A DNA stretch of 64,000 nucleotides from the NCBI GenBank assembly GCA_946480785.1, contig CAMLLD010000015.1:1-64000 (forward strand), written 5' to 3'. Position 1 is the stretch's first letter. Every line of letters starts with the position of its first letter. A program made the translations under genes and the position numbers. Source of the DNA: an uncultured Blastocatellia bacterium. GTDB lineage: Bacteria > Acidobacteriota > Blastocatellia > Pyrinomonadales > Pyrinomonadaceae. A model generated the notes under the pieces. That model was not told the origin of the DNA, made no database searches, and saw only the letters and a list, made by a program, of their open reading frames with translations. Below, piece by piece: positions 5,181 through 60,490 of this stretch.

Positions 5181-5230
5181 ACTTCGCCCCCCTTGAACCT
5201 TCACTCGTGCGGTGCTGCCGCACTTACCCT

Positions 5231-5722: not shown

Positions 5723-5731
5723 GCGAACCCG

Positions 5732-5850
5732 ATGCACCCGCTTCTCGCAAACTCAATGCACCCGTCCTCGTAAACTAAATGCACCTGCTCCTCGCAAACT
5801 AAATGCACCTGCTCCTCGTAAACTCCATGCACCCGCTTCTCGCAATAACA
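5732..5850 (+). repeat. Five tandem copies of a 24-bp unit containing a start codon
   Basis: Units begin with ATGCACC at 5732, 5756, 5779, 5803 and 5827. Four are 24 bp and the second is 23 bp. The consensus is ATGCACC-C/T-G-CTYCTCG-C/T-AAACT plus 2-3 bases. The last unit is the first eight codons of the downstream gene, so the array is a multiplied translation-start region. A GGAGGT Shine-Dalgarno at 5715-5720 lies before the first copy only. Copies 1 and 3 open short frames that stop within one or two units (MHPLLANSMHPSS and MHLLLAN). Copy 4 reads in frame into copy 5 and the gene. Confidence 0.9.
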
Positions 5851-8300: not shown

Positions 8301-8385
8301 TCAGGAGAGTAGACAAGCCCGCTAAACCTATGCTCCAAAGCGTGAGTTGTCAAACTTTAATCTTTGGAGGTCGTGCCCAAACGAT

Positions 8386-9384: not shown

Positions 9385-9451
9385 GTTGAGTAAGATAGTC
9401 GAGGTCCATGTCGAATCCAACCCAAAATCGTGCGAGCGTGTGGTAATCTGA

Positions 9452-12061: not shown

Positions 12062-12065
12062 AAAA

Positions 12066-12077
12066 CACAGATTACGC
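12066..12077. repeat. CACAGATTACGC intergenic repeat unit
   Basis: A single half of the dispersed element described at 31664-31704. It lies in the 30-bp gap between the ligase start and the FAD-oxidoreductase start. Another copy of the 10-bp core is at 17460-17469. Confidence 0.45.
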
Positions 12078-12091
12078 TATCTTCACTCCCG

Positions 12092-27005: not shown

Positions 27006-27866
27006 ATGTTTCCGCAGACCGCATTCATCAAACACCTGGTTGCTTTGGTCGTCATTACGATCGCCTTAGCCACAGGTGCTTGCGCTGCTCTACAACCGAT
27101 CGATACAAGCGGACCGCGGGCCAACGAGCCCGCGTATCCGATCAGCCTGGCCGACACGTCCGCGCGGCTCGAACAAGCTTCAGTCGCGTGGTATCAGATG
27201 TCGCAACACTACGGACTGCCCGGCAAGACCGACGCGAACCTGAATCCTTATACAGGAACAGTGGAGAGTTTACCGGCGAACGCTGGTCCAATCGTACTGC
27301 CGAAAGTCGGCACTGAGCCGGTGCAGACTGAAGAGCAGACACGCGAGTCGCTGCGGCGGTTCATCGCCGATTGGCGCCAACTCATCGGCGCCGATCCGGA
27401 GCAGTTGTCTTTAGTCGAACGAACCGACGATCCGTCCGGAGTGAAAACCGCTCGTTACGAACAGAAGCCGTTTCGTTATCCGCTGCGCGGTGGCTACGGC
27501 AATTTCGTCATTCGTTTTCAATCTGACCGCCAGGTGGTCTCTCTTTCGAGCAACTGCATTCCCAACGCCGACCGCCTGCAACCGGCATTGAATGGTCTGA
27601 CTCCGAAAATCACCGCCGCTGAAGCCATCGATCGGGTAAGAAAACAAGTCGTGACCACGCCTGCCGTGAATGGACCATCACAAACGTTCACGCTGCCGGC
27701 GAACGCGACTTTCACAGTGCACGATCTGGTGGTTTACGCACAGCCAGCGCCGGACCAGGGCAACGGTCTGCAACTACGTCTCGCCTGGGAAATACAAGTA
27801 ACGAACGGCCCCGTAAAGACGGTCTACTACGACGCGATCGCCGACCAGGTGATCGCGACGGCTTGA
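27006..27866 (+). CDS. Lipoprotein with PepSY/FTP-like C-terminal segment
   Basis: A 286-residue protein starting at the ATG before MFPQTAFIKHLVALVVITIALATGACAALQP; the lipobox ATGAC makes it a lipoprotein. The central part (QTREQTRESLRRFIADWRQLIG... type helix-strand) and the C-terminal KITAAEAIDRVRKQ plus LAWEIQVTNGPVKTVYYDAIADQVIATA resemble the PepSY/thermolysin-propeptide fold, which inhibits or chaperones peptidases. No peptidase gene is attached. The domain call is tentative. The following NYN gene begins about 50 nt after its stop. Confidence 0.6.
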   Translation: MFPQTAFIKHLVALVVITIALATGACAALQPIDTSGPRANEPAYPISLADTSARLEQASVAWYQMSQHYGLPGKTDANLNPYTGTVESLPANAGPIVLPKVGTEPVQTEEQTRESLRRFIADWRQLIGADPEQLSLVERTDDPSGVKTARYEQKPFRYPLRGGYGNFVIRFQSDRQVVSLSSNCIPNADRLQPALNGLTPKITAAEAIDRVRKQVVTTPAVNGPSQTFTLPANATFTVHDLVVYAQPAPDQGNGLQLRLAWEIQVTNGPVKTVYYDAIADQVIATA

Positions 27867-27913
27867 CCGCGCACGGTGGACCTCGTTACTTGACCAAAGG
27901 AGAACGAATTAGC

Positions 27914-28684
27914 ATGCTAAGAATCCGACAAGGGGGAACTACGTCTATGAATAATAATTTCGATCCTACTAACAACGTTTCATGGCAATTAGGTCACCGC
28001 GGCAGAGTGGCGGTATTTATTGACGGCAACAATCTTTTCCACGCAGCGCGCTTTCACAACATCGACGTCGATTACAACAAACTACTCCGGGTCCTGCTCG
28101 GAGACGGTCGCTTGTTACGAGCTTTTTTCTATACCGGCGTAGACGTCGGCGCCGAACGTCAACAGGGATTTCTATTGTGGATGCGTCGTAATGGTTTTCG
28201 GGTAATTCAGAAGGAACTGAAAACTTTTTACGACGGCACGCGCAAAGCAAATCTCGACGTGGAGATTGCGGTCGACATGTTGTCGCTGGCCGGTCGTTAC
28301 GATACGGCGGTGCTCGTTTCCGGTGACGAAGATTTTGTTTACGCGGTGAATGCGGTGGCTTACAAAGGCTGTCGCGTGGAGATCGCCGGCTTTAGATCCA
28401 ACACCGCGCCGAAGCTGATCGACGTCGCTGACTACTTCATCGATCTCGGTGAGATCGCCGAAAAGGTGCGCAAAGAGGCGTCGCATGGACCGCGTTATGA
28501 CGAACGCGATCTGCACGATCATGTGCCGCAGTATTTGCCGGCCGACGGGATGCCGCTGCCGAAACCACAGCCTGACGCTTTTCAAACGGCGATGCGAGTG
28601 GTATTAGAGACTGAGATCGGCGAAGACGAAGCGGCGGAATTTCAGGCCGCGAGCGAGTTCATCAGGATCACAGACGACCATTAG
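27914..28684 (+). CDS. NYN-domain (LabA/DUF88-like) predicted ribonuclease
   Basis: A 256-residue protein. The NYN/PIN-like fold is clear: GRVAVFIDGNNLFHAARFHN (first acidic residue), NLDVEIAVDMLSLAGRYDTAVLVSGDEDFVYAVNAVAYKGCRVEIAGF (further acidic residues) and APKLIDVADYFIDL. The family comprises Mg-dependent RNases and RNA-binding proteins. The C-terminal 70 residues are low-complexity and acidic. I chose the ATG at 27914, 10 nt after AAAGGAGA. A second ATG at 27947 with a GGGGGA upstream is also possible. An upstream TTG overlapping the lipoprotein stop is less likely. Confidence 0.83.
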   Translation: MLRIRQGGTTSMNNNFDPTNNVSWQLGHRGRVAVFIDGNNLFHAARFHNIDVDYNKLLRVLLGDGRLLRAFFYTGVDVGAERQQGFLLWMRRNGFRVIQKELKTFYDGTRKANLDVEIAVDMLSLAGRYDTAVLVSGDEDFVYAVNAVAYKGCRVEIAGFRSNTAPKLIDVADYFIDLGEIAEKVRKEASHGPRYDERDLHDHVPQYLPADGMPLPKPQPDAFQTAMRVVLETEIGEDEAAEFQAASEFIRITDDH

Positions 28685-44587: not shown

Positions 44588-46081
<1,494 letters not shown>

Positions 46082-46090
46082 GCAAAGTCT

Positions 46091-46106
46091 TATATCACAT
46101 GATATA
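46091..46106. promoter_or_regulatory. Candidate divergent operator, TATATCA-CA-TGATATA
   Basis: A perfect 7-bp inverted repeat with a 2-bp spacer, TATATCACATGATATA. It is centred in the 38-bp gap between the acyl-CoA ligase start (46081) and the aldehyde dehydrogenase start (46120). Size and AT-rich symmetry resemble sites of GntR or MarR-type dimeric regulators. One bound dimer could cover both translation starts. No regulator gene lies next to it. Confidence 0.55.
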
Positions 46107-46119
46107 TTCCAGCACTCTT

Positions 46120-47598
46120 ATGAATACCTACCGCAATTTTATCAACGGCAAATGGGTTGAATCGGAATCGACGCGCACGGCTGCGAACGTCAACCCGGCG
46201 AACACTGACGACGTTCTCGGCACTGTGCGACAAGCCACCCGCGATGAAGCGCGCGCCGCGGTCGAAGCCGCATCAAACGCTTTCCGCGAGTGGCGTGCGA
46301 CGCCCGCCCCAACACGCGGCCGCATCGTCGCGAAGGCCGCGCGCCTGCTCGAAGAGAACAAGGAAGAGGTCGCGCAACTGCTCACCCGCGAAGAAGGCAA
46401 AACGATCGCTGAGTCGCGCGGCGAGCTTCAACGCTCGATCAACGTCGCCGAGTTTTGCGCGGGCGAAGCGCGACGACTCAACGGCGAGACAATTCCATCC
46501 GAGCTGCCGCTCAACTTCGCTTACACGATCAAACAACCGATCGGTGTCGTCGCGTGTGTGACGCCGTGGAATTTTCCCGTCGCGATTCCGATCTGGAAGA
46601 TCGCGCCTGCGTTAGTGGCCGGCAACACCGTCGTTTTCAAACCAGCGTCGATCACACCGGCAACAGCGGTTCGCATCACCGAGATCTTCGAAGCCGCTGG
46701 AATACCTGCCGGCGTTCTGAATCTCGTGCTCGGCTCTGGCTCCGAAGCCGGAGACGAGATCATCAATCATCCGGCGGTGAAAGCGATCTCGTTCACGGGA
46801 TCGAACGGCGTCGGCATTCGTCTTTACGAACAGGCCTCTCGCCGCGGCGCGAAAGTGCAATGCGAGATGGGCGGCAAAAATCCCGTCGTCGTGCTCGAGG
46901 ACGCAGACATGGATCTCGCGGTTGAATCGACGGCGCAAGGCGCGTTCGGATCGTCGGGTCAACGTTGCACGGCGACGAGCCGCGCGGTAGTCGTCAATGA
47001 CATCGCCGATGAGTTTGTGCAGCGCATCGCAAAGCGCGCGGAGTCGATGCGCATTGGCGCCGGCGCTGATCCGCAAACCGAGATGGGACCGAGTGTCGAC
47101 GAAAACCAGTTCAAGACCGTGCTGAGTTACATCGACATCGGACGCGAAGACGGCGCGACGCTCGTTTGCGGCGGCGCGCGCGCGACCGGCGACGGGCTCG
47201 ACAAAGGTTACTTCGTGCGGCCGACGGTTTTCGACAACGTCACGCCCGACATGCGTATCGCGCGCGAAGAGATCTTTGGACCAGTGTTGTCAGTGCTGCG
47301 CGTGAGAGATTTCGATCACGCGATGGAAGTGGCGAACGATTGCGAGTACGGCCTCTCGTCGTCGATCTTTACCAACGACGCGCCGCGCATCTTTCGTTTC
47401 GTCGACGAGATCGAAACCGGCATGACGCACATCAACTCCCCGACAACCGGCGGCGAAGCGCACGTTCCCTTCGGCGGTATCAAAGGCACCGGCATCGGCG
47501 ACCGCGAGCAGGGCTCGACGGCGCTGGATTTCTACACGGATCTGAAAGTGGTCTATGTCGATTACACCGGCCGCAAGCGCGAGGGCAATCTTTACTAA
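46120..47598 (+). CDS. NAD(P)-dependent aldehyde dehydrogenase
   Basis: A 492-residue ALDH superfamily enzyme from ATG (MNTYRNFINGKWVE). It has the NAD site region CVTPWNFPVAIPIWKIAPALVAGNTVVFKPAS, FTGSNGVG, general base in CEMGGKNPVVV, nucleophile Cys in SSGQRCTATSR and EEIFGPVLSVLR. The sequence style matches the alpha-ketoglutaric-semialdehyde/succinate-semialdehyde dehydrogenase branch. Placed first in the pyrimidine operon, it may oxidise the malonate or methylmalonate semialdehyde formed from beta-alanine or beta-aminoisobutyrate. The matching aminotransferase is not in the window. The next gene starts 21 nt downstream. Confidence 0.87.
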   Translation: MNTYRNFINGKWVESESTRTAANVNPANTDDVLGTVRQATRDEARAAVEAASNAFREWRATPAPTRGRIVAKAARLLEENKEEVAQLLTREEGKTIAESRGELQRSINVAEFCAGEARRLNGETIPSELPLNFAYTIKQPIGVVACVTPWNFPVAIPIWKIAPALVAGNTVVFKPASITPATAVRITEIFEAAGIPAGVLNLVLGSGSEAGDEIINHPAVKAISFTGSNGVGIRLYEQASRRGAKVQCEMGGKNPVVVLEDADMDLAVESTAQGAFGSSGQRCTATSRAVVVNDIADEFVQRIAKRAESMRIGAGADPQTEMGPSVDENQFKTVLSYIDIGREDGATLVCGGARATGDGLDKGYFVRPTVFDNVTPDMRIAREEIFGPVLSVLRVRDFDHAMEVANDCEYGLSSSIFTNDAPRIFRFVDEIETGMTHINSPTTGGEAHVPFGGIKGTGIGDREQGSTALDFYTDLKVVYVDYTGRKREGNLY

Positions 47599-47619
47599 CC
47601 TGCATCCCTTCGACCAACT

Positions 47620-49002
47620 ATGAAAACTCTCATCAAGAACGGCCGCATCGTGACCGCCGTCGACGACTACAACGCTGACATTCTGATCGAAGACGAACGC
47701 GTCTCAGTCATCGGCAAGGATCTGCAAATGGAAGCCGACCAGACGATCGACGCGAGCGGCAAGCTCGTGATTCCCGGCGGCATCGATCCGCACACGCACA
47801 TGGAACTGCCGTTCGGCGGCACCGAGGCGTCAGACGATTTTCGCACCGGCACCATCGCGGCCGCGCACGGCGGCACGACCACGATCATCGATTTCGCCGT
47901 GCAGTACAAAGGCCAGTCGCTGATCGAAGGCATCGACAACTGGCACAAGAAAGCCGAAGGCAAAACCGTCATCGACTACGGCTTTCATCTCATCACCACC
48001 GAGCTCGAAGACAAGCAGATCGAAGAGCTCTACACGGCGATGGACGAAGGCGTGACGAGCTTCAAGATGTTCATGGCCTACCCGGGCGTGTTTCTCGTCG
48101 ACGACGCGACAATCTTTCGTGCGATGTCCGCGGCGGGCCAGCGCGGCGGTCTCATCTGCATGCACGCCGAGAACGGCATCGTCATCAACGAGATCATCAA
48201 ACGCGCGCTCGAAAAAGGTCACACGGCGCCGAAGTATCACGCCCTCACGCGGCCGACAATCGCCGAAGCCGAAGGCGTGCATCGCGCGATCGCGATCGCC
48301 GAGATGGCGGAGTCGCCGGTTTACATCGTTCACCTCTCGTGCGCCGACGCGTTGAACCAGGTGCGCCAGGCACGCGATCGCGGCATTCCCGCGTTCGCCG
48401 AAACGTGTCCGCAGTATCTCTTCCTCTCGCTCGACAACTACGACGAACCCGGTTTCGACGGCGCGAAGTACGTCATGACGCCGCCGTTGCGAGACAAGTC
48501 AAACCAGGCCGAGTTGTGGAAGGGTTTGAAGATGGACGACCTGCAAGTCATCTCCACCGATCACTGCCCGTTCTGCATGAAGGAACAGAAGGAACTCGGC
48601 AAAGACGACTTCACAAAGATTCCAAACGGCGCGCCCGGCGTCGAGAACCGCGTGCCGCTCATCTACAACGGCGGCGTGGTCGAGAATCGCATCAGCTTGA
48701 ACCGCTTTGTTGAACTAACCTCGACTGCGGCGGCGAAAATGTTCGGCCTGTTTCCGAAGAAAGGAACGATTGCTGTCGGCAGTGACGGCGACATCGTCAT
48801 CTTCGATCCGAACAAGGAACAGACGCTGGGCGTGAAGACCAGCCACATGAACGTCGATTACAACGCTTACGAAGGCAAGAAGATCAAAGGCGTGGTCGAG
48901 ACGGTGCTGTCGCGCGGCAAGGTCGTCGTCGACAACGGCGACTTCAAGGGCAAGCCCGGCAATGGACAGTTTCTGAAACGCGGCACGTGCGTGGCAATTT
49001 AA
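47620..49002 (+). CDS. hydA: Dihydropyrimidinase
   Basis: A 460-residue cyclic amidohydrolase. Metal ligands His58 and His60 in GIDPHTHME, carboxylated Lys149 in VTSFKMFMAY, His in CMHAENG and VHLSC, and the catalytic Asp in STDHCPF. The ring-substrate loop and overall length match dihydropyrimidinase/hydantoinase rather than allantoinase. It opens dihydrouracil and dihydrothymine to N-carbamoyl-beta-amino acids. The neighbouring beta-ureidopropionase and dihydropyrimidine dehydrogenase fix the pathway. Second gene of the operon. Confidence 0.93.
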   Translation: MKTLIKNGRIVTAVDDYNADILIEDERVSVIGKDLQMEADQTIDASGKLVIPGGIDPHTHMELPFGGTEASDDFRTGTIAAAHGGTTTIIDFAVQYKGQSLIEGIDNWHKKAEGKTVIDYGFHLITTELEDKQIEELYTAMDEGVTSFKMFMAYPGVFLVDDATIFRAMSAAGQRGGLICMHAENGIVINEIIKRALEKGHTAPKYHALTRPTIAEAEGVHRAIAIAEMAESPVYIVHLSCADALNQVRQARDRGIPAFAETCPQYLFLSLDNYDEPGFDGAKYVMTPPLRDKSNQAELWKGLKMDDLQVISTDHCPFCMKEQKELGKDDFTKIPNGAPGVENRVPLIYNGGVVENRISLNRFVELTSTAAAKMFGLFPKKGTIAVGSDGDIVIFDPNKEQTLGVKTSHMNVDYNAYEGKKIKGVVETVLSRGKVVVDNGDFKGKPGNGQFLKRGTCVAI

Positions 49003-49033
49003 CCCCCAACGACGATCTCATCGGAGAATACTG

Positions 49034-50506
49034 TTGAGAGCAGACGAGACCATTCAACACCCCGACGGCCGGGTCGAGCTTCGTCCGGAAGCCCTCGCAG
49101 AAATCAGTCAAAGCACTCTCTACAATCGCGACCTCGCGCCCGTGCCTGTTGCCGAGCGCAATTGGACCACCTACAACTACGCCGCGCTCTGGATCAGCAT
49201 GGCGCACTGCATTCCGACCTACATGCTTTCGTCGGGCCTCATCAGTGCGGGTATGAACTGGTGGCAGGCGCTGATCACGATCCTGCTCGGCAACACGATC
49301 GTGTTGATACCGATCCTGCTCAACTCGCATCCCGGCACGAAGTACGGTATTCCGTTTCCCGTCTTCGCGCGCGCGGGTTACGGCACGCTCGGCTCGAACC
49401 TGCCGGCGCTGATGCGCGCGATAGTGGCGTGCGGCTGGTTTGGCATTCAGGCGTGGATTGGCGGCGAGGCCCTGAACACGCTCTTCAAAGCGATTTTCCC
49501 TGGTTGGCAGACATTGCTTGGTGGTCCATTAGGCGGTCACACCCCGACCGAATGGCTCTCGTTCCTGCTGTTCTGGGGGCTCAACATCTACATCATCTAT
49601 CGCGGCATGGATCTGCTGCGCAAGGTGGAAAACTGGGCCGCGCCTTTCGTGCTGATCATGACCGCGCTGCTGCTCGCGTGGGCCATCTGGAAAGCGAACG
49701 GGCTCGGCTATCTGCTCAACCAGCAGAGTAAGTTTCACACCTTTAAAGAGTTTTGGCCCATCTTCATCATCTCGCTCACGGGCATGATCGGGTTCTGGGC
49801 CACGCTGTCTTTGAACATGCCCGACTTCACGCGCTTCGGGAAAAGCCAGCGCGATCAGGTCGTCGGACAAGTCGTCGCACTGCCGACAACGATGACTGTG
49901 TTCGCAGCGATGGGCGTGATGATCACGTCCGCGGCGGTCGTTATTTATCCGCACATGAAACCGGAAGAGCTTTGGGATCCGATGAAACTCGTCGGCCAGT
50001 TTCAGAGTGTCGCGGTGATCGCGATCTCGATGTTCACGGTCGTCGTGGCGACGCTAGCGGTGAACATCGCCGCCAACGTCGTCTCGCCCGCGAACGACTT
50101 CGCCAACGCGTTTCCGAAATGGATCTCGTTTCGCACCGGCGGCTTGATCACCGGCATCATCGGCATACTGATGCAGCCGTGGCGGCTGCTCGCGGATCCT
50201 TCGGGCTACATCTTCGCGTGGCTGGTCGGCTACTCTGGCGGCCTCGGCTCGATCGCGGGCGTGTTGATTGCCGACTACTGGTTCGTGCGCAAGAAGCGCC
50301 TCGTGCTCGGCGATCTGTATCGCAGCGAAGGCGCTTACACCTACAACGGCGGCTGGAACTGGCGCGCGATCGTCGCGACGCTCATCGGCTGCACCCTCGC
50401 CTGGATCGGCCTGGTCGTGCCCGCGCTCGCCCCGCTCTACGCCTACGCCTGGTTTGTCGGCTTCGGCGCAGCCGCGATTGCGCATCTGCTGCTGATGAAG
50501 ATATAA
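49034..50506 (+). CDS. NCS1-family nucleobase permease
   Basis: A 490-residue, twelve-helix transporter. The NCS1 opening is clear: ELRPEALAEISQSTLYNRDLAPVPVAERNWTTYNYAALWISMAH is the conserved cytoplasmic N-terminus and first helix, followed by GTKYGIPFPVFARAGYG, WFGIQAWIGGEA and NMPDFTRFGKS. The related proteins carry uracil, allantoin, hydantoin or cytosine. Operon position supports uracil or thymine import. The start is a TTG with GGAGAA upstream. Third gene of the operon. Confidence 0.9.
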   Translation: MRADETIQHPDGRVELRPEALAEISQSTLYNRDLAPVPVAERNWTTYNYAALWISMAHCIPTYMLSSGLISAGMNWWQALITILLGNTIVLIPILLNSHPGTKYGIPFPVFARAGYGTLGSNLPALMRAIVACGWFGIQAWIGGEALNTLFKAIFPGWQTLLGGPLGGHTPTEWLSFLLFWGLNIYIIYRGMDLLRKVENWAAPFVLIMTALLLAWAIWKANGLGYLLNQQSKFHTFKEFWPIFIISLTGMIGFWATLSLNMPDFTRFGKSQRDQVVGQVVALPTTMTVFAAMGVMITSAAVVIYPHMKPEELWDPMKLVGQFQSVAVIAISMFTVVVATLAVNIAANVVSPANDFANAFPKWISFRTGGLITGIIGILMQPWRLLADPSGYIFAWLVGYSGGLGSIAGVLIADYWFVRKKRLVLGDLYRSEGAYTYNGGWNWRAIVATLIGCTLAWIGLVVPALAPLYAYAWFVGFGAAAIAHLLLMKI

Positions 50507-50540
50507 ACAGCTTAACTTTGACTGAACGAGGATTTGCTAC

Positions 50541-51410
50541 ATGCCACGCACGGTTAAATGCGGACTTATTCAATGTACGAACGCGGCGCCGACGGATGCT
50601 CCGATTGAGGAGATCAAGCGGCTGAATATCGAGAAGCACCTGCGCTATCTCGAGGACGCCGCCAAACAGGGCGTGCAGATCATCTGCATGCAGGAGGTTT
50701 TCACTACGCCTTACTTCTGCGCCGAACAGCAGACGCGCTGGTATGAAGCGGTCGAGCGCATTCCCGATGGTCCAACCGTGCGCCTGATGCAGGAAGTCGC
50801 GAAAGCACACGGCATGGTGATCATCGTGCCGATCTACGAAGAAGAGATCACCGGTGTTTACTACAACACTGCGGCGGTGATCGATGCTGACGGCAAGTAT
50901 CTCGGCAAGTATCGGAAGAACCACATCCCGCACGTGAATCCGGGTTTTTGGGAGAAGTTTTATTTCCGGCCGGGCAATCTCGGTTATCCTTGCTTCGACA
51001 CGGCGTTCGCGCGCATCGGCGTGTACATCTGTTACGACCGGCATTTTCCGGAGGGGGCGCGCGCGCTTGGGTTGAACGGCGCCGAGATCGTGTTCAATCC
51101 GTCCGCGACGGTGGCGGGGCTGTCAGAATATTTGTGGCGGCTCGAACAACCGGCGCACGCGGTTGCGAATGGTTACTTCATCGGCGCGATCAATCGCGTC
51201 GGGCACGAGCAGCCGTGGGACATCGGCGAGTTTTACGGGCAGAGTTACTTTTGCGATCCGCGCGGGCAGTTTGTCGCGGAAGCGCCGCGTGACAAGGATG
51301 CGCTTGTCGTGGCCGATCTCGATCTCGATAAGATCAGAGAGGTACGGAACACGTGGCAGTTTTTTAGAGATCGTCGACCGGACACTTACGGCGCGCTAGT
51401 GGCCGACTAA
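50541..51410 (+). CDS. Beta-ureidopropionase (nitrilase superfamily)
   Basis: A 289-residue carbon-nitrogen hydrolase with the Glu-Lys-Cys triad: Glu52 in ICMQEVFTTPYF, Lys126 in GKYRKNHIPH and Cys164 in YICYDRHFPEGARALGLNGAE. RVGHEQPW and SYFCDPRGQF are typical of the beta-ureidopropionase branch. It hydrolyses N-carbamoyl-beta-alanine or N-carbamoyl-beta-aminoisobutyrate to the beta-amino acid, CO2 and ammonia, the last step of reductive pyrimidine degradation. Fourth gene of the operon, 40 nt before the dehydrogenase. Confidence 0.92.
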   Translation: MPRTVKCGLIQCTNAAPTDAPIEEIKRLNIEKHLRYLEDAAKQGVQIICMQEVFTTPYFCAEQQTRWYEAVERIPDGPTVRLMQEVAKAHGMVIIVPIYEEEITGVYYNTAAVIDADGKYLGKYRKNHIPHVNPGFWEKFYFRPGNLGYPCFDTAFARIGVYICYDRHFPEGARALGLNGAEIVFNPSATVAGLSEYLWRLEQPAHAVANGYFIGAINRVGHEQPWDIGEFYGQSYFCDPRGQFVAEAPRDKDALVVADLDLDKIREVRNTWQFFRDRRPDTYGALVAD

Positions 51411-51449
51411 AGCCACGCATTACACAGATCGGAGTTAGGAGCTTTACAT

Positions 51450-52550
51450 ATGGACCTGTCGATCACTGTTAACGGCATGAAGTTCCCCAATCCGTTTGTG
51501 CTGGGTTCGGGTCCGCCGGGAACGAACGCGCGCGTGCTCGCGAAGTCGTTTGAAGCCGGCTGGGGCGGCGCGGTCGCCAAGACCGTCAGCCTCGAATCGG
51601 CGAAAGTCGTTAACGTCGTGCCGCGTTACGGCAAACTCCGTTCGCGCCGCACCGGCGAAGTGATCGGTTTTGAAAACATCGAGTTGATCTCCGATCGACC
51701 GATCGACGTCTGGCTCGACGAGTTTCGCCAGGTCAAAAAAGAGTATCCCAATCACATCCTGATCGCTTCGATCATGGAGGAGTATGAGAAGAGCCGCTGG
51801 CAGGAACTGACGCGCCTCGTCCAGGACACCGGTGTCGACGGTTTCGAGCTCAACTTTTCGTGCCCGCACGGCATGACCGAACGCAAGATGGGTTCGGAGA
51901 TGGGCGAGCATCCGGACCTCACGGAAGAAGTAACGAGTTGGGTGACTGAAGTGGCGAAGATTCCGGTGTGGGCCAAGATGACGCCCAACATCACGAACAT
52001 TCGTGAGCCCGCGCTTGCTGCTGTCGCCGGCGGCGCGGTCGGCATTTCCGCCATCAACACGATTCTCTCGGTGATCGGTGTCGATCTCGACACGCTGCGG
52101 CCGATGCCGACGGTTGAAGGTCATTGCGTGCCGGGTGGTTATTCAGCGCAGGCCGTGCGGCCGATCGCGTTACGCATGGTGAGTCAGCTCGCGCTCGGGT
52201 TACCTGAAGGCATCAGCATCAGCGGCATCGGCGGCATCGAAAATTCTCACGACGCACTCGAGTTCATGCTGCTCGGCGCCTCGACCGTGCAGATCTGCAC
52301 TGGCGTGATGTTGCAGGGCGTGAAGATGATCGACGAGTTGTGCGAAGGCGTGGAAAAGTTCATGGTCGACAAAGGCTTCGACTCGGTACAGGAGATGGTC
52401 GGCAAAAGTCTGCCGTACTTCTCGACGCACATGGATCTCGTGCAGAAGATGAAAACCGCGAAGCGCTCGAAAGCCGGCGAGGCGAGCCGCGACAACGAGT
52501 GGGCGCAAAAAGATATTATCGAGAAGACCGCGGAACTCACTTCGAACTGA
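51450..52550 (+). CDS. Dihydropyrimidine dehydrogenase, plant PYD1-like
   Basis: A 366-residue FMN TIM-barrel enzyme. It has NGMKFPNPFVLGSGPPGTNA, GFELNFSCPHGMTERKMG, VWAKMTPNIT, AINTILSVIGVD, VEGHCVPGGYSAQAVRP and SGIGGIENSHDALEFMLLGA. The tail (FSTHMDLVQKMK then DNEWAQKDI and a final TSN) resembles plant PYD1. It carries none of the C-terminal [4Fe-4S] cysteines of E. coli PreA, and no preT-like gene is adjacent. I take this as a natural single-subunit type, not a truncation. It reduces uracil and thymine. Last gene of the operon, ending just before the AT-rich island. Confidence 0.88.
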   Translation: MDLSITVNGMKFPNPFVLGSGPPGTNARVLAKSFEAGWGGAVAKTVSLESAKVVNVVPRYGKLRSRRTGEVIGFENIELISDRPIDVWLDEFRQVKKEYPNHILIASIMEEYEKSRWQELTRLVQDTGVDGFELNFSCPHGMTERKMGSEMGEHPDLTEEVTSWVTEVAKIPVWAKMTPNITNIREPALAAVAGGAVGISAINTILSVIGVDLDTLRPMPTVEGHCVPGGYSAQAVRPIALRMVSQLALGLPEGISISGIGGIENSHDALEFMLLGASTVQICTGVMLQGVKMIDELCEGVEKFMVDKGFDSVQEMVGKSLPYFSTHMDLVQKMKTAKRSKAGEASRDNEWAQKDIIEKTAELTSN

Positions 52551-52610
52551 TGGTTTTCGTCAACATGATTGTAAGGTCGATGCAAACTGACGAGATCGAC
52601 CGCGACGAAT

Positions 52611-52619
52611 AGGAGGTGA
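52611..52619 (+). promoter_or_regulatory. Orphan perfect Shine-Dalgarno AGGAGGTGA
   Basis: Nine of nine bases match the complement of the 16S rRNA tail, on the plus strand, 60 bp behind the dihydropyrimidine dehydrogenase stop. No ATG, GTG or TTG follows at usable distance; instead the minus-strand island gene ends 2 bp later. It reads as the leftover ribosome site of a gene that once followed in the operon. Confidence 0.5.
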
Positions 52620-52620
52620 A

Positions 52621-55041
52621 TCAGCGCTGCGGTTCATTCAGACTCATTTTCGAAGCGTCTGAAGCGAGATTGTGAAGCCACTTCTTAAGTGTTTCAAGGT
52701 GCGTTCGATAGGTAGTCACTTCAGTACGGGGTAAGCTGTTATCCCTCAATAAGGTTTCCATCGCAGTAACGCAGTCCTGCAACGCTCTCCTGTCTGCACG
52801 TTCCCACGCCTTACGTCCTCTTAACATCAAACGCGTATCTTCGATATTCGGCAGTATTACATGTTGGATAACCGATACTGATTCGTTAGGCTTTTTAAGG
52901 ATATTATCAATCGCAGTTAGATACTGTTCAGCACGTCGATATTCAGGCTTTTCCGCAATAACTTCAAAGTAAGCCAAATTGTTGAGGATACTAACTCTCA
53001 AGCGCAAGTCTTCTTTCTTATCCAGCAGACTTAACGCTTTATTGAACATTTCACGAACAAACGGTCTAGACGGTATTTGCGTCGCGTTCCAGTTAAGTTC
53101 ACTCTCTTGTTTAAGATCTAATGTGTCCTCCCATAAACTTCTAGATTCGTGATAGAGCGTGGCGATTGCGGCTGCCTCCTTTATGTATCGCGGATCGTCC
53201 GTTCCCTTTTGTAATACTAAATCAATCTCTAAATAGGCATCGACGTATGCCTGATTGGCTCTGTGCGCATCACTATCCATCTCTGCTATTCTTCGCTTGC
53301 ACACTGCTGCAAAGTAGTGGAGTTCAGAGGGTGATATGAGACTAGTTAAGCGCTGCGGAGGCCAGTTTTGAACTAACGTTCTGCAGTGCTCGATCAGCCT
53401 AAGTGCAACGTACCACTCCTCAATCATCCCTAACGTAAAGGCTAAAAATAGAAAATCTTCGGGTTGACTAAAATTTTGCGCAACCTCATATATGACATGA
53501 ATGAAGGCATACTCATCTTTAGCTTGAGTGTTCGGATTCAAAGCTTTCAACCGCGCTTGAAAAATAGGTGAGATGAATTGGATTGATGGCATGCGAAGAT
53601 ACCGCTTGCTTCGCATGATCGTCTTAGTAGTGCCCTCTTTACCTTGAAAGGTTTCAATGAGTGCATTGCTTACTCGGGCTGCGGCCTCGTTGTCTACAAG
53701 ATTCAGAAAACTTAAACGTAAACAGTCGCCCTCTATCTCACTCCAGACGCTTTCGGCATCCAAACTCGCCAAATTCTTATAGGTGTCTGTTGAGAGAAAC
53801 TCCAACAAATTTCGTAGTTGCCGATACTCTTCCCTAAAAATTGCGAACTCTGGATGGGAATCTTGATTTGATAACCCCAAAAACTGCTCAGCCAGCCAAG
53901 GTATGTGTTTAGCAGCCAGTGAGAGTTTCAGGTTGATATGTTGATCCCATAGCAGTATCGTCTCATTCAAAACCGTTTTGCCCAATGCCGCTAGAGCGGT
54001 AATAGGCTTTGGCGTTCTAAGCGATCCTCTCAGTTGAGTAATTGTTCGTGTAACAGAATGTTCCATTAACATCAACTTACGATCTGATTCCCGTATCCAG
54101 TCGTTAGTTTCCGCATAAGAAATGTTACCTCTAATAACGAGGTCGAGAAAAATACTTTCGATTCCTCTCAGATGGTCACGCATCTGATCCCACACGATCG
54201 ATTTTTGGGATGCTGTCTGCTTCGTTAGCTCGAAAATGCTGGCATCTCTCGTGATGAAAACAACCTTCGCGTTGGAGTCTTTCAGACGTTCGTTGATCTC
54301 TTTGAGCAGGAGGACAGCTCTGGCATCAATGGTGGCCTGTTTTCGCCGTTCTCTTTTCCTCGTGGACATTCGATTAATAACATCAACAACAGCTCCGCCC
54401 GACGGACCATTCAAATCGAATGGTAAGTTTCGCTCTTTAAAGATCGCCTCAATTCTATATGATAACCGCTTGCTGTCGACCAATTGTCTAAAGCTGTTTT
54501 GCCTCTTCACATGATTTACGAATTGGCTGACATCAAAACACAAAGGTGCAAATTCGGGGGATTTTACGAATGTTAGCAATTCATTTTTATCTTCCTGAGA
54601 AGGGTTTCGCAGTGACTCAAGCATCCGCTTTTGCTGATCAGTTAATCTTCGAGTGTGTTCAAGCAGTTCGTTGTACTTCGCTTGGCTCTGTAGATCCTCG
54701 CGACGCTGAGTCTTTGCGTATGTCCAGAGTTCCAATGTATGCGGAGGGAGCATGTAAAGTGTCGTCGTGAATGTGGAAAACAGATGAGTGATGCTTAGCC
54801 TGTACTGAAGTTCTGTCTTTTCTGGCCGCTGAAGATCTAGATTTACGCCAATAAATTCCGTCTCCGCTTGAGTATCGAGATTTAAATACGAATAGAGTTC
54901 GCTGAAATCGACGGCATAAAATAACTTCGTGCCGTTTCTGCTCTCGTCCAAGTCACGCCGCAATTCTGCAACGCATTCACGTAACCGAACGATCGCGGTT
55001 TTTGCCTCCTCCAATTTTGAAATCAACGAACTCTCAGTCAA
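52621..55041 (-). CDS. Island gene C: PIN-like nuclease core with helical-repeat tail
   Basis: An 806-residue protein of no family I recognise. Residues 1-35 form a coiled coil. A PIN-like pattern follows: strand LFYAVDFSEL with Asp45, then TIDARAVLLLKEI with Asp239, then KVVFITRDASIFEL with Asp266. Asp220 or Glu248 could complete the acidic set. In PIN nucleases these residues bind Mg and cleave RNA. A helical insert (about 55-200) separates the first acidic strand from the rest. Residues about 420-800 are helical and TPR-like in rhythm, for example LRVSILNNLAYFEVIAEKPEYRRAEQYL. There is no signal peptide or membrane helix. It overlaps gene B by 4 nt and is last of three. Confidence 0.7.
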   Translation of the reverse strand: MTESSLISKLEEAKTAIVRLRECVAELRRDLDESRNGTKLFYAVDFSELYSYLNLDTQAETEFIGVNLDLQRPEKTELQYRLSITHLFSTFTTTLYMLPPHTLELWTYAKTQRREDLQSQAKYNELLEHTRRLTDQQKRMLESLRNPSQEDKNELLTFVKSPEFAPLCFDVSQFVNHVKRQNSFRQLVDSKRLSYRIEAIFKERNLPFDLNGPSGGAVVDVINRMSTRKRERRKQATIDARAVLLLKEINERLKDSNAKVVFITRDASIFELTKQTASQKSIVWDQMRDHLRGIESIFLDLVIRGNISYAETNDWIRESDRKLMLMEHSVTRTITQLRGSLRTPKPITALAALGKTVLNETILLWDQHINLKLSLAAKHIPWLAEQFLGLSNQDSHPEFAIFREEYRQLRNLLEFLSTDTYKNLASLDAESVWSEIEGDCLRLSFLNLVDNEAAARVSNALIETFQGKEGTTKTIMRSKRYLRMPSIQFISPIFQARLKALNPNTQAKDEYAFIHVIYEVAQNFSQPEDFLFLAFTLGMIEEWYVALRLIEHCRTLVQNWPPQRLTSLISPSELHYFAAVCKRRIAEMDSDAHRANQAYVDAYLEIDLVLQKGTDDPRYIKEAAAIATLYHESRSLWEDTLDLKQESELNWNATQIPSRPFVREMFNKALSLLDKKEDLRLRVSILNNLAYFEVIAEKPEYRRAEQYLTAIDNILKKPNESVSVIQHVILPNIEDTRLMLRGRKAWERADRRALQDCVTAMETLLRDNSLPRTEVTTYRTHLETLKKWLHNLASDASKMSLNEPQR

Positions 55042-56057
55042 GTTTGTAATTCCTCGGGTGCTTCAATGTAGGAAAGAGCAACAGGTTCTTGAGCCGTAAG
55101 AAAAGCTACGGTTCTTTGCAGGTTCAGTGCGTCTATACCGAAGAGCGTCTCTTCGAAAAGCACATCTCCATTTTGATACTGGGCTAGCAATTGATCATCA
55201 GGTAGCAGCAATGTCACACCAATAGATTTAAACTCCCAGACAACTTCGCTTATTGATTCCACAGGAATTCGCCTAAGAAAGCGTTTAAATAGTTCCCTAC
55301 GCTGCGCACGAGAGGATTGGAGCAGCAGATCGCAGGTTAGTAAACCGGACTCTCGCAAGGTTTGAACAATATCCGCGACGAATTGCGGCTCTCCCAATTT
55401 GATAGCCAAATTGACCATATTAAAAACTCGTGTCGCGCTACCGAGATCTCGAAAGAGTAAATGTAAAATTACGTTCAGTTCCTTTTTAGCGTTGTTTGCA
55501 CGAAAGAGCTGCAGTACAAGCGGCAGGTGTTTAGCGGCATAGCTTTCGCGAAAACGGTAAAGAGCCCGGTAGCAAATGCTTGTGTAGTCAAAATTGTTAA
55601 GATAACTTATAAATAGCGACACGGTGCGTTCGCTGCAACCGAAACCGGAAAGCACACTCAGACAGCGCTGGCGTAAGACTGTTTCGTCCGGACGTCCTTT
55701 CAACCTCTCAGATGCGATTAAGGCGACCGTCGCCTCGGCTGCGGCACAGCGCAACCGGCCGCACATCAATAGTAGGTCATCCAAAGCCTCAGATGGATCA
55801 TCCCTGCCCCACTCTTGGAGAAGTTCCGGTATTACAACTCGTACTCGCGTTCGGAGAGCTACAGATCCCGCTCGTAACAAGTTCGATATTTCAAGCGCAA
55901 TTCGTGAGGTGGAAGGAATGAAAATCGGCTGAGCGCTACGCAGCCAAAATATTGAACGCAGCCAGTCTTTAAGGTTTCGCTCGGATTGAGCCTCAATCCA
56001 TCGCGACGCCTCATTTAGAATGATGCTTTCAGTTCCCATCTTAGCGCAGCAGTTCAT
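55038..56057 (-). CDS. Island gene B: helical protein of unknown function
   Basis: A 339-residue, almost wholly alpha-helical protein with repeating Leu/Ala-rich helix pairs (ALDDLLLMCGRLRCAAAEATVALIASERL, LVLQLFRANNAKKELNVILHLLFRD, MVNLAIKLGEPQFVADIVQTLRESGLLT). This suggests a HEAT/ARM-type superhelix for protein or nucleic-acid binding. There are no catalytic motifs. It overlaps gene A by 17 nt and gene C by 4 nt, so all three are translationally coupled. An ATG lies at the start of the frame (MNCCAKMGTES), and an internal Met at residue 7 is an alternative. Confidence 0.6.
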   Translation of the reverse strand: MNCCAKMGTESIILNEASRWIEAQSERNLKDWLRSIFWLRSAQPIFIPSTSRIALEISNLLRAGSVALRTRVRVVIPELLQEWGRDDPSEALDDLLLMCGRLRCAAAEATVALIASERLKGRPDETVLRQRCLSVLSGFGCSERTVSLFISYLNNFDYTSICYRALYRFRESYAAKHLPLVLQLFRANNAKKELNVILHLLFRDLGSATRVFNMVNLAIKLGEPQFVADIVQTLRESGLLTCDLLLQSSRAQRRELFKRFLRRIPVESISEVVWEFKSIGVTLLLPDDQLLAQYQNGDVLFEETLFGIDALNLQRTVAFLTAQEPVALSYIEAPEELQT

Positions 56058-57030
56058 CGATCAGTTTTAAGTCTAATGGAGGACACAATTCTTTTATGGT
56101 TCCCTGTTTGTCAGCCTCAATCTGAGCGGTAAATGGAACTTCTTGGACAACTAATTCTTTGAGGTCCCTTCGATGGCTTCGAAGATTCAAAGTTCTGCCG
56201 TAACAATCGGGTTCAGCTGCGGGCACAAAGGCTGGGTTTATGCCTCCGTCTAAAGTAGTTGGGGGCCGGATAGTTAATCCAGTGAGGACATGAGGCGGAA
56301 TGCTCAATCTAACGATGCGTTGGCCGCGAGACATGTGGCTAAGGCCTAGGCGATCTCGTATGAGCGTAGTATGGTCATCAATGCTCAATCCAGTTCCGAT
56401 CACCTCGATCTCGTCAGCAGTCGCACACCAAAAAAAACGACGCTCAGTCCGCAACTGGCCTGCATGGAACGCCGATGATATCAAACCACCTAAATTCTCC
56501 CATACAAAGTCCATATCATCTTCCGCTTCGTCAATGATGGAAGCAAAAGCATGTCGGTCTAGTAAATAATAAAAGTATACCTCCAGCCTAACAAAACAGG
56601 TAAATTTCGTTAGCGCCGGAGATGGGCGGTGGCTTCTTAGATCGAGGGAGGAATTTCGGGACAACACAAATTCAAGCGCAGCCAGAGGGGTTGTCAAAGG
56701 GGCAACATCGTTTAGGTTCGCTTCGACGAAAGTTTCAAACTCCGATCGGTCGTCACCCGAGAGATTGCCGTTATCAACATCAAACTGAAACTTGCTCAGC
56801 CATAGACGTCCGAGGCCGTTTGATGCTAAATCTGATATGAACTGTGCAAAGTTAGCATAGTGAGGCATGTGGATTTGGGTGCGGTAAGGCGCTGTTCTCC
56901 TTCCGGTTCGTCTCATGAGCGTCGAATTAACTTCGACTAGGAAGGCTGCGGTACGAGTGCGAGGAAAGCCAGACCGCTCGGTACAGCCTTCGATGGAAAT
57001 GCGCGCAGAGGGTAAACCTGGGCCGACCAA
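56041..57030 (-). CDS. Island gene A: protein of unknown function
   Basis: A frame of up to 329 residues, the promoter-proximal gene of the island. The frame opens with TTG, right after a stop codon. The first 50 residues are Arg/Thr-rich and may not be translated. Met55 (MPHYANFAQFISDL) is a reasonable alternative start, though neither has a clear ribosome site. The body has an acidic helical half (FETFVEANLNDVAPLTTPLAALEFVL, FASIIDEAEDDMDFVWENLGGLIS) and a strand-rich C-terminal half (GQRIVRLSIPPHVLTGLTI, LKELVVQEVPFTAQIEAD). No known domain recognised. Overlaps gene B by 17 nt. Confidence 0.58.
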   Translation of the reverse strand: MVGPGLPSARISIEGCTERSGFPRTRTAAFLVEVNSTLMRRTGRRTAPYRTQIHMPHYANFAQFISDLASNGLGRLWLSKFQFDVDNGNLSGDDRSEFETFVEANLNDVAPLTTPLAALEFVLSRNSSLDLRSHRPSPALTKFTCFVRLEVYFYYLLDRHAFASIIDEAEDDMDFVWENLGGLISSAFHAGQLRTERRFFWCATADEIEVIGTGLSIDDHTTLIRDRLGLSHMSRGQRIVRLSIPPHVLTGLTIRPPTTLDGGINPAFVPAAEPDCYGRTLNLRSHRRDLKELVVQEVPFTAQIEADKQGTIKELCPPLDLKLIDELLR

Positions 57031-57165
57031 AAGTCAATAGAACGAAGTTGTAGTACGCCATACGCACCAACCAAGAGAAGATTAGTTGTAGCGAGTCAGC
57101 GATAATTCATTTTGTCTTCTCAGTTTTGACGCAAGATTAGTCTCCTTCGAAGATCTTGTTTATGG

Positions 57166-57933
57166 CTAACTAAACTCTGCGATAACGGGAGCGTGATCCG
57201 ACGGGCGCTCCCACTTTCTCGTTTCGATGTCGATCCAGGCGCGCACGCTGCGCGGCACGAGTGACTCCGTGATCCAGATGTGATCGATGCGCAGTCCGAG
57301 GTTCCGACGAAACGCACCCGCACGATAATCCCACCACGTAAACTGTCCACCCGCTTCGACGTGTAAACGGAACGCGTCCGTGAAGCCCCAGTCCTTTATG
57401 TTCTGCAACGTCGCGCGCTCCGGTTCGCTGAACATGATCCTTCCGGTCCACAGACGCGGATCGTGAACGTCACGCTCTTCCGGCGCCACATTGAAGTCGC
57501 CACACAAAAGCACCGGCGTCGTCTTGTCGTATTGCGTGTCGAAGAACTCGCGCAACCGCCGCATCCAATCGAGCTTGAACACAAACTTCTCTGAGCCGAC
57601 CGCCTGACCGTTCGGGATGTAAACGTTGACGATGCTCACACCGTTGAATTGCGTCGTGATGAGTCGTGACTGGGCTTCGCCGTCGTCGCCGGGAAAACCG
57701 CGATGACTCGTCTCACACGCTCCGCGTGTGAGGATCGCGACGCCGTTGTACGACTGCTGGCCGAAAAGATGACAGTGATAGCCACGCTCCTGAAACACAT
57801 CCACCGGAACTTTGTCGTCGGTGCATTTTGTTTCCTGCATGCAGAGCACGTCGGGTTTGACGGCGTCGAGCCAGCGCACGACCAGCGGCAGCCGCGCGAG
57901 GATTGAATTAACGTTCCAAGTTGCGATTAGCAT
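57166..57933 (-). CDS. xthA: Exodeoxyribonuclease III
   Basis: A 255-residue AP endonuclease/exonuclease. It starts at MLIATWNVNSILARLP, the family N-terminus, so I reject the 10-residue longer frame. Metal-binding Glu in CMQETKCTD, DFNVAPEERDVHD, the WDYR loop, RIDHIWI and the terminal SDHAPV are intact. It repairs abasic sites and removes 3' blocks. It follows the M20 peptidase gene by 4 nt. Its stop marks the right flank of the AT-rich island, and neighbouring composition returns to GC-rich here. Confidence 0.94.
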   Translation of the reverse strand: MLIATWNVNSILARLPLVVRWLDAVKPDVLCMQETKCTDDKVPVDVFQERGYHCHLFGQQSYNGVAILTRGACETSHRGFPGDDGEAQSRLITTQFNGVSIVNVYIPNGQAVGSEKFVFKLDWMRRLREFFDTQYDKTTPVLLCGDFNVAPEERDVHDPRLWTGRIMFSEPERATLQNIKDWGFTDAFRLHVEAGGQFTWWDYRAGAFRRNLGLRIDHIWITESLVPRSVRAWIDIETRKWERPSDHAPVIAEFS

Positions 57934-57937
57934 CTGA

Positions 57938-59128
57938 TCAAACTGACAACAACAGCCCGGCAATCAAGGCGCCGCGTGGTCCAATATCGGTCGCTTGAAT
58001 GTGTTCGTGCAGCGCGTGTGCGCCGTCGCCGCTGATGCCGAGCCCGTCAAGCACGGGAATTCCCAGCGCCGCGAGAAAGTTTCCGTCAGACGCGCCGCCG
58101 ACTTGCGCCTCACCGAGTTCAAATCCCAACGACGCTGCGATGCTGCGCGCCTTCTCAAACAGCTCGATGACCTCCGCGGTGCGTTCCATCGGCGGCCGAT
58201 TGATGCCGCCGGAAACAAAAACTTTCGTGCGCTCGTCAACGGGTTCGAGAGTCGAAAGAATGCGATCGATCTCCTGCGCCTCCGCTTCAGTGGCGAAGCG
58301 CACGTCGATCTCGCCTTCAGCCTGCGCGGCCACAACATTCGAACGCGTGCCGCCATGGACCACGCCGACATTCAACGTGATGCCCGAACCGCTGAAGTTG
58401 CAAGCATGCAGCCGTTCGATCTGGCGCGCGAGCTCGAGAATCGCACTTGCGCCTTTTTCGGGTTCGAGTCCCGCGTGCGCAGCTTTTCCCTCGACCTTGA
58501 TCGCGTAAATGCCGGTTCCCTTGCGCCCGGTCTTGACGCGGCCGCCCAGCGCCGGCGGCTCCAAGACAAACGCGTATTTCGTATTCCGCTCGCGTGCGAC
58601 ACGCTCAATGAACGGCCAACCCGACGTGCTTCCGACTTCCTCATCGCACGTCAACACGATCGTCACACCGAGACGTGGCTTTAGATTCAACTCCGACAAC
58701 GTGCGCAACACTTCAAGCGCCAACACACAGTTTGCCTTCATATCAAAAATGCCCGGGCCGTAAATCTTGTCACCTTCGCGCCGCCACGGACGCTCCGCTA
58801 CCGAACCGCGCGAATGCACGGTGTCTGTGTGGCCCACCAGCAAAACCTGTCCCGTGCTGCTCTGCTCCTGAAAAGCCCTGACGACAAGATGCTCACCGAA
58901 CTCCGCCACGCTCACTCGTTCCACCGAATCAACACACGCCAAACCGCGCGCCGCATTCTCGATCAGATCGACCACTGCGCGACTACCATTCTGGTCACCC
59001 GAAGGCGACTCCGTTTCCACCAGCGCCCGAATGAACGACTCGATCTCGTTCTGCCTCGTCTCAAATCGTTCGAGAACCTGCTTTGCCAGCGACGCGGAAA
59101 TGAGCCGCGAAATGAGTTGACTCGTCAT
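57938..59128 (-). CDS. M20-family metallopeptidase (carboxypeptidase G2-like)
   Basis: A 396-residue di-zinc hydrolase. It has [10 protein letters not shown], metal ligands in [11 protein letters not shown] and [11 protein letters not shown], catalytic Glu pair in TCDEEVGST, a dimerisation (bowl) domain with [17 protein letters not shown], and a final His in [11 protein letters not shown]. The CPG2 branch removes glutamate or acyl groups from N-acylated amino acids. It directly follows the enolase-family racemase with a 4-nt overlap. This suggests that it deacylates the racemase's N-acyl-amino-acid product. Confidence 0.9.
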
Positions 59129-60237
59129 AGATTGATCGTTTGCTTGCGCACCGTCAGAGCGTCGATGCGCGGTAGGTTCAGATTGAAACCAATACCCGGC
59201 GCGTCAGAAACAGTGATCGTCCCTTGCGCGCTCACTTTCACCGGCGGCTCGATGATGTCCTCTTCCCAATAACGCGCGCTCGCCGACACGTCACCGGGCA
59301 AACTGAAACCCGCGAGCGTCGACATCGCGATGTTGTGCGCGCGTCCGATGCCCGATTCCAACATGCCGCCGCACCAGACCGGAATATCGTTCTCACGCGC
59401 GACCTGCTCGACGCGCTTGGCCTCCGTGTGTCCGCCGACGCGTCCGAGTTTCACGTTGATGATCTTGCACGAACCGAGCCCGATCGCGTGCGTCGCATCT
59501 TCAGCGCTGTGAATCGACTCATCCAAACAAACCGGCGTCTGAATCTGCTGTTGCAGTTTCGCGTGATCGAAGATGTCGTCGTGGGCCAACGGCTGTTCGA
59601 GCATCATCAAGTTGAAGCCGTCGAGCTTCTTGAACAGCGGCACGTCCGCGAGTGTGTAAGCAGAGTTCGCATCACCCATCAAACGTATGTTCGGAAACTC
59701 CCGGCGCACGCGTTCGACGATCTGCAAATCCCAACCGGGTTTGATCTTGATCTTGATGCGCTGGTAACCGGCGTCGACTTCCTTGCGAATCTTCTCGAGC
59801 AGGATCTCTGGCGTGTCCTGGATACCGATCGAAACGCCGCAAGCGATCTCGCGGCGCGTGCCGCCGAGATGTTTCCACAACGGCACGCCGAGTTTCTTCG
59901 CCTCGAGATCCCAACACGCAGTTTCGAGCGTCGCTTTCGCCATGCGATGACCACGCACCGGTTTCAGCAACGCAAACACGTTCGCAGCGCTGTCGAACCT
60001 TTTACTCAACAGCATCGGACCGAGAAACTCGCAAAGCGTGTCCCAGCCGCTGTCGGTCCACTCATCGCTGTAAAAAGGACCTTCGCCCGCGGTGAATTCG
60101 CCCCAACCTTCCGCGCCGTCAGCGTCTCTGACGCGCGCGAGCACAATGCGCCGTTCAGTGGTGCGGCCGAAGCTTGTTTCGAAGAAGTGGATCAGCGGCA
60201 GGCGGATCTCGCGCAGTTCGATCGACTGAATCATCAA
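59125..60237 (-). CDS. N-acylamino-acid racemase / o-succinylbenzoate synthase (enolase superfamily)
   Basis: A 370-residue enzyme closely patterned on the Deinococcus/Amycolatopsis racemase-OSBS group. Acid/base Lys162 and Lys164 in [11 protein letters not shown], metal ligands Asp189 (MGDANSAY), Glu214 (LEQPLAHDD) and Asp239 (CLDES), opposing Lys263 ([10 protein letters not shown]), and [15 protein letters not shown]. The family is known for dual OSBS (menaquinone) and N-succinyl-amino-acid racemase activity. No men genes are nearby and an M20 deacylase overlaps it by 4 nt, which favours the racemase role here. An ATGATG start gives two equivalent initiators. Confidence 0.9.
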
Positions 60238-60258
60238 CAGGAAAGTTGGGCCTCCGTG

Positions 60259-60273
60259 CAGGCATTATGCCTG
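60259..60273. promoter_or_regulatory. Palindrome CAGGCAT-T-ATGCCTG upstream of racemase gene
   Basis: A perfect 7-bp inverted repeat with a single central base, 21 bp upstream of the racemase ATG. It sits in the 253-bp divergent gap before the large nuclease gene. Position fits an operator or a small hairpin in the leader. The remainder of the gap holds only an AAGGAAGG ribosome site for the plus-strand gene. Confidence 0.35.
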
Positions 60274-60490
60274 TCCGCAGGGCAGTTGTCAGCTTGCTGA
60301 TGAATGCGATGTTGACGTTTGGAGAAATCTTCGGCGCGCGCAATTTAAGAGGTGTTTCGCGGCTTGACCCACCCTTTCAGAACTGATAAAAGGCACGCAC
60401 CAATTTATCCGACCGGCCTCAAAGCACCTCCGGTATTCCTCGCAAAACGTTAAGTGCGGAGTAGGTAAACTTTATTCAAAGGAAGGTTCT

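Follow-up and report, generated by a model that had tools for sequence, protein, structure and literature searches.

Three genes lie on an island of foreign composition

We analysed a window of 64,000 nucleotides (nt) from an uncultured Blastocatellia bacterium (contig CAMLLD010000015.1, positions 1 to 64,000), and describe here three consecutive minus-strand genes, A, B and C, carried on an island of low guanine-plus-cytosine (GC) content between two housekeeping-type genes. As raw open reading frames (ORFs) they span 52621-55041 (806 amino acids, aa), 55038-56057 (339 aa) and 56041-57030 (329 aa). With gene starts corrected from homologues, the element consists of:

52549..57167, no strand: inserted island, 4,619 bp, GC 0.461, absent from the orthologous PreA/ExoIII junction of the relative G521 (locus L079)
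52621..55041, minus: gene C, 806 aa from a TTG start; a long helix at the N terminus, then a PIN-like region, a helical middle part and TPR at the C terminus
55038..56039, minus: gene B, 333 aa; start set by P0007 and P0008
56041..56868, minus: gene A, 275 aa; start set by homologues P0032 and P0033

B begins at its second Met (ATG 56039) in its closest homologue, P0008, and in P0007, the database prediction for the window's own B. Because B homologues begin there, the 17-nt A/B overlap of the original prediction is not real but a start-codon artefact, and A and B lie 1 nt apart. The start of A is at ATG 56868 according to P0032 (275 aa) and P0033 (272 aa). The predicted sizes of 329 and 339 aa for A and B therefore fall to 275 and 333 aa, whereas the three minus-strand genes, the 4-nt B/C overlap (TTGA) and the 806 aa of C all stand, the TTG start of C agreeing with its homologues.

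Inside the island, GC per 500 bp is 0.42-0.51 (mean 0.459), against a mean of 0.581 (standard deviation 0.026, minimum 0.50) over the rest of the window. GC at third codon positions (GC3) is 0.45-0.46 in A, B and C, compared with 0.59-0.82 in 39 other tabulated ORFs. The abrupt drop in composition first described is thus real, sharp and without equal in the window, but the neighbouring DNA is about 58-59% GC, not 65%. No ORF of at least 80 aa other than A, B and C occurs within the 4,619 bp.

The same junction is empty in a close relative

The island is bordered by the following features:

51450..52550, plus: left neighbour, PreA-type dihydropyrimidine dehydrogenase, a host gene outside the module; DHO_dh match, 96% identical in G521
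52545..52548, plus: left AACT, possible 4-bp target-site duplication, also the final bases of PreA; the G521 empty site has AATT here
57168..57171, plus: right AACT, possible 4-bp target-site duplication
57166..57963, minus: right neighbour, exodeoxyribonuclease III-type gene (ExoIII); Exo_endo_phos match

The immediate flanking genes are of housekeeping type, as had been proposed; their finer names were given by eye, the Pfam matches being DHO_dh and Exo_endo_phos. In G521, whose PreA protein is 96% identical to that of the window, the island is missing: window positions 50541-52546 and 57160-60462 match adjoining DNA at the G521 junction (blastn), and this empty site fixes the exact island ends. 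The G521 junction reads TCC AATT AAACTC, and that of the window reads AACT (52545-52548), island, AACT (57168-57171) and then AAACTC. The AACT pair flanking the 4,619 bp resembles a 4-bp target-site duplication and is possibly one; the tetramer match alone is weak, AACT starting at 23 of 4000 tested positions within the island, and we saw no terminal inverted repeat when we looked for one at the island. If the G521 junction is the older state, the insertion hit the point where two convergent genes overlap at their 3' ends. In that case the end of the PreA protein stayed the same, and the ExoIII tail changed from EFNWT-stop, as in G521, to EFS-stop, as in the window.

Other relatives arrange this junction differently. 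About 0.94 and 1.02 kb separate PreA from ExoIII in G198 and G026, and the 15 kb inspected in G076 contained no match to ExoIII. From the differing arrangements in G521, G198, G026 and G076 we conclude that the junction is variable in the clade. Two junction loci (L080, 6782-7723; L082, 6260-7280) hold two small hydrophobic-looking ORFs, of 150 aa and 89-98 aa, that are alike in both. This junction is possibly a hotspot for insertion; alternatively, the clade of the window may have lost the two small ORFs.

G521 does carry an A-B-C trio, on its contig C5 rather than on C6, with proteins 25-29% identical to those of the window. Because two near relatives hold very different trios at different places, separate acquisition is the best explanation. 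The composition, the empty site and a patchy horizontal distribution all uphold the foreign origin that had been proposed. The opposite reading, that these are vertically inherited housekeeping genes of unusual composition, runs against the empty site in a relative with 96% identical PreA, the other location of the trio there, its presence in 1 of 119 genomes of the family and the GC3 values given above; since the G521 site is empty, we regard that reading as refuted. Neither of the outcomes that the original prediction had named as telling against it, single and vertically inherited housekeeping genes or a matching composition, is what synteny, GC, the empty site and rarity indicate.

A, B and C form a conserved, rare and highly diverged unit

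A, B and C occur in one order and on one strand in all three loci whose DNA we read: the window, L001 and L074 (the latter in G521), the last two having been found through B alone. The L001 trio comprises A at 9051-9887, B at 9905-10828 and C at about 10809-13304; in L074 they lie at 7073-7945, 7966-9060 and 9107-11575. Gaps or overlaps between genes are at most 46 nt in all three. The operon-like coupling first suggested and a conserved A-B-C synteny are both supported. Protein searches at E<=0.001 returned 24 B, 3 A and at least 6 C proteins, each count including the window's own; the C count is a lower bound because only the 7998 candidates sharing most words were scored. One B homologue is labelled Pyrinomonadaceae by its source. 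Four of the five non-self C homologues lie on contigs equal in size to one bearing a B homologue (4899, 14885, 4905 and 6367), as does one of the two non-self A homologues (12417), a pairing made by equal size alone and without reading the DNA. Over the read or size-paired loci, C is 787-832 aa, A 272-290 aa and B 307-364 aa.

The three proteins have diverged together. Window proteins are 25% (A), 28% (B) and 26% (C) identical to those of L001, 25%, 29% and 26% identical to those of L074, and 43% (A) and 40% (B) identical to those of the 12417 contig, the divergence of A following that of B across these loci. The pairwise identity matrices of B and C correlate with r = 0.979 over seven pairs (the three read loci and four size-matched pairs), a value reached by 1 of 5040 permutations, namely the identity permutation. 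With six pairs r is 0.98 (1/720), and without L001 it is 0.87 (1/120).

The unit is also rare. With the B profile, a single carrier turned up among 396 genomes of the phylum, and likewise a single one among 119 from the family to which G076 belongs. A was seen in one of 396 genomes, and C in one of 98 genomes related to G001, from which L001 comes; the genome samples of these searches overlap, and distant copies may escape their initial filter. Among 162 genomes of the class, C matched two and we accepted one, and in every genome search the accepted carrier was G001 or G521. The second class-level match (L084, G268:C16:84136-84408, in a 1076-aa frame) is a short match to the TPR region with E 4.9e-4, which we took as generic TPR. 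The window's DNA polymerase I is 78% identical to that of G076 and 77% to that of G198, both of which belong to the phylum of G001. We take this phylum to be Acidobacteriota, a reading helped by the B homologue labelled Pyrinomonadaceae but at odds with the record title of L001, 'Deltaproteobacteria bacterium isolate P_S1_bin.14'; given the shared phylum, that title may be outdated. Relatives of A, B and C were not found in IMG/VR.

We conclude that A-B-C is a conserved unit, foreign at this site, rare and highly diverged between its carriers. The three genes might instead be leftovers, without a function in common, of a larger and now decayed element such as an integron, prophage or plasmid. 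The possible target-site duplication would fit, as it implies an integrating enzyme; only three genes are seen in the 4,619 bp, however, and the intact trio recurs at two other loci with correlated divergence, making this explanation very improbable.

C combines a PIN-like region with a predicted TPR superhelix

The largest of the three proteins, C, can be divided as follows:

54937..55035, minus: C residues 3-35, long N-terminal helix, coiled-coil-like (model secondary structure)
54112..54936, minus: C residues 36-310, PIN-like region with a helical insert at about 113-231 (model and alignment; profile support weak)
52624..53571, minus: C residues 491-806, TPR superhelix, confident from about residue 541 (predicted model)

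The predicted model supports a TPR superhelix of helix pairs in residues 491-806. In the PIN-like region, D45 (54907-54909), E104 (54730-54732), D239 (54325-54327) and D266 (54244-54246) are invariant in all eight aligned C proteins, as are the TRD and RA motifs around them. These four acidic residues follow the order D, E, D, D, as in PIN active sites, and we take them to be the PIN positions, given also a by-eye likeness to PhoH-type PIN sequences. Three of the four have a model strand immediately ahead of or next to them (residues 39-44, 95-97 and 258-263), with helices between the strands. Across residues 36-310 the ten-residue means of the predicted local distance difference test (pLDDT) run from 38 to 88 in the whole-chain model, and fold searches with the whole model were filled by TPR matches. 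A PIN nature for this region is plausible. Of the original description of C as a PIN-like, helical-repeat protein, the repeat part is thus borne out by the model, and the PIN part stays at plausible, the invariant acidic residues favouring it and the profile tests described below being weak.

A and B have no recognised domain. Five A proteins share mid-protein tryptophans in VW and FW, together with RxxLGL, PTxLD, F.P, YGxTLxL and ExV motifs, of which PTxLD, F.P and YGxTLxL belong to the C-terminal part of A. Most B proteins contain LSVLSGFGC and CYRALYRY-type motifs, which are absent from L074 B.

Two other functions have to be weighed against this architecture. The trio could be a mobile accessory operon outside defence. 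C would then sense peptides through its TPRs, as Rap and NprR do, its acidic region would have no nuclease activity, and the three genes would control a response such as competence, conjugation or signalling. We consider this unlikely: the four acidic positions and their surrounding TRD and RA motifs are invariant (8/8) while the TPR part varies more, with a mean column agreement of 0.52 against 0.66-0.67 in the two PIN-like parts (seven proteins), and Pfam revealed no regulator or helix-turn-helix domain in the A, B and C proteins scanned. Alternatively, C could be a ribonuclease (RNase) toxin silenced by A, B or both, in a toxin-antitoxin or addiction element kept because its loss kills the cell. 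The tight operon seen in the window, L001 and L074 would suit such an element, and PIN RNases are best known from VapC toxins, as PMC13092281 also says. The sizes of the proteins given above, with TPRs in C, are nevertheless unlike those of small toxin-antitoxin pairs, we found no DNA-binding antitoxin domain, and B and C were not found on plasmids, nor C on phages; the addiction reading is decidedly doubtful.

Family and defence searches return no known system

No nameable system fits the trio, in agreement with the original prediction: Pfam, NCBIfam and PADLOC all lack a fitting family, NCBIfam having been searched with the window's own A, B and C. In PADLOC-DB 2.0, which dates from 2023, no match at E<=0.001 was found for the window's A, B and C, for seven C proteins or for the L001 and L074 proteins scanned. 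C-family proteins gave weak single matches to the candidate families PDC-S47 and PDC-M71B (E 0.014 and 0.011, one of seven proteins each; 13 bits over residues 368-414 for the window's C), and membership in them is not credible. No description of the trio appeared among the open-licence papers listed by literature searches.

The predicted enrichment beside known defence genes was not seen in the three loci, a test of low power that covered part of the neighbours. At L001, two flanking proteins were scanned and neither had a PADLOC match at E<=0.001. One of the two, encoded on the minus strand at 3068-6316 and thus some 3 kb away from the L001 trio, is a CHAT domain fused to TPRs, with marginal PADLOC matches (E 0.0019 or worse); CHAT-TPR proteins are often seen in conflict systems.

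A-B-C as a candidate conflict module

Taking these results together, we favour the reading, at a probability of about one half, that A-B-C is a self-contained conflict module of three genes that spreads horizontally. It would most likely be directed against phages or other mobile elements, and its proteins probably form one complex. Both the conflict or defence role of the trio and the PIN-type RNase activity of C are inferred.

Several results weigh against this reading. The proposed defence role is so far without support, no PADLOC match at E<=0.001 having been found for A, B or C or for any of nine flanking proteins (six in L074, three beside the window island). Pfam gave no family with a reliable E-value for any A, B or C protein scanned, and the island's three proteins include no Pfam nucleoside triphosphatase (NTPase) or nucleotide-signal enzyme as a possible trigger. 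Searches with tblastn gave no plasmid-borne relative of B or C and no phage-borne relative of C. A has a poor model (mean pLDDT 47.5), in which only residues about 1-78, predicted as helices, reach middling confidence, and that of C is middling (mean pLDDT 68.8, predicted template modelling score 0.46). No Pfam PIN match was found in the C proteins scanned, and a four-block PIN motif test of C was not above its null. One hhalign result favours PIN: C columns 228-310 aligned with PhoH-type PIN in the right register and scored above 40 of 40 column permutations, but at a probability of 3.4%, which is weak in absolute terms. For the same columns, the score was no better than that of permutations against PIN-TPR-GreABC (reached in 12 of 40 cases) and little better against VapC-type (4 of 40) and TRAM-type PIN (1 of 40). 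Columns 36-115 gave no signal, 22 to 34 of 40 permutations reaching the score.

If A-B-C is a conflict module, a mechanism can be sketched in five steps of falling confidence, the last three purely conjectural. The predicted C-terminal TPR superhelix of C would bind a peptide or protein and hold the complex together. Its N-terminal PIN-like region would act as a putative RNase that depends on metal bound by D45, E104, D239 and D266. B might be a helical scaffold or an inhibitor docking on C, and A a sensor or adaptor whose helical N-terminal domain docks while its C-terminal part recognises the trigger. Infection would then switch the complex on, and C would cut RNA, stopping the phage or the cell.

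More tentatively, the trio could be the first of a new class of RNase immunity that uses three proteins and no NTPase. In this view A, with a new fold, would recognise an invader product, and B would couple A to C. RNA would be cut by C, whose PIN domain would be interrupted by a helical insert and joined to a peptide-binding TPR superhelix; as a bare three-gene cassette, the module would enter convergent gene junctions with a 4-bp target duplication.

Whatever their function, the trio is a conserved mobile unit of three families that lack a Pfam or PADLOC name in the members scanned and, for the window's own proteins, an NCBIfam name. Searches of defence islands would be likely to miss it because it sits alone among housekeeping-type genes. 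Its clean empty site in a near relative makes the trio directly testable by transfer or deletion. Should its role prove to be defence, the trio would contribute a PIN-TPR effector accompanied by two new families of partners and by no NTPase.

Other genes in the window

The stretch 46066-52550 appears to be a pyrimidine or hydantoin catabolism run, with genes named by eye as an aldehyde dehydrogenase, a hydantoinase, an NCS1-type permease, a ureidopropionase-like protein and PreA; parts of this run are matched in relatives (blastn). An NYN-domain protein is encoded at 27863-28684 on the plus strand (Pfam NYN 5.5e-37; GC slightly low, 0.53), with PADLOC matches to LabA-like NYN (1.1e-22) and HEC-09 (2.6e-8).

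Comparison with known systems

VapBC toxin-antitoxin systems resemble the trio in the PIN-type RNase reading of C, but differ in size, in the TPR part and in their partners. The nearest published idea is PIN-TPR-GreA/B-C (Pfam PF20698; Kaur et al. 2021, PMC8195603), a large, fast-evolving, predicted anti-invader protein that is like our reading of C in joining a PIN-type domain and TPR in one protein. In that family, TPR and GreA/B-C precede a PIN domain at the C terminus, the N-terminal effector is exchangeable and the gene mostly stands alone. In C, by contrast, the PIN-like region is N-terminal and the TPR part C-terminal, and two partner genes are conserved. We rejected membership of C in PF20698, the order of regions being reversed and no match appearing at E<=10 in eight C proteins (window C, six aligned relatives and L074 C); PF20698 also had no match in G001, the holder of the L001 trio.

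DS-3 and DS-5 are PIN nuclease phage-defence systems from DefensePredictor and show that a PIN protein can serve as effector in defence against phages; DS-5 depends on a partner protein and is described as probably not being a toxin-antitoxin system (PMC13092281). They share with our reading of C a PIN-type RNase as defence effector. As one- and two-protein systems with other partners, they are set apart from the trio by their description there rather than by sequence. The vWA-MoxR ternary systems (PMC7159879) are three-component conflict systems that can carry PIN effectors. The trio is unlike them in that Pfam scans of A, B and C showed no MoxR NTPase or vWA domain.
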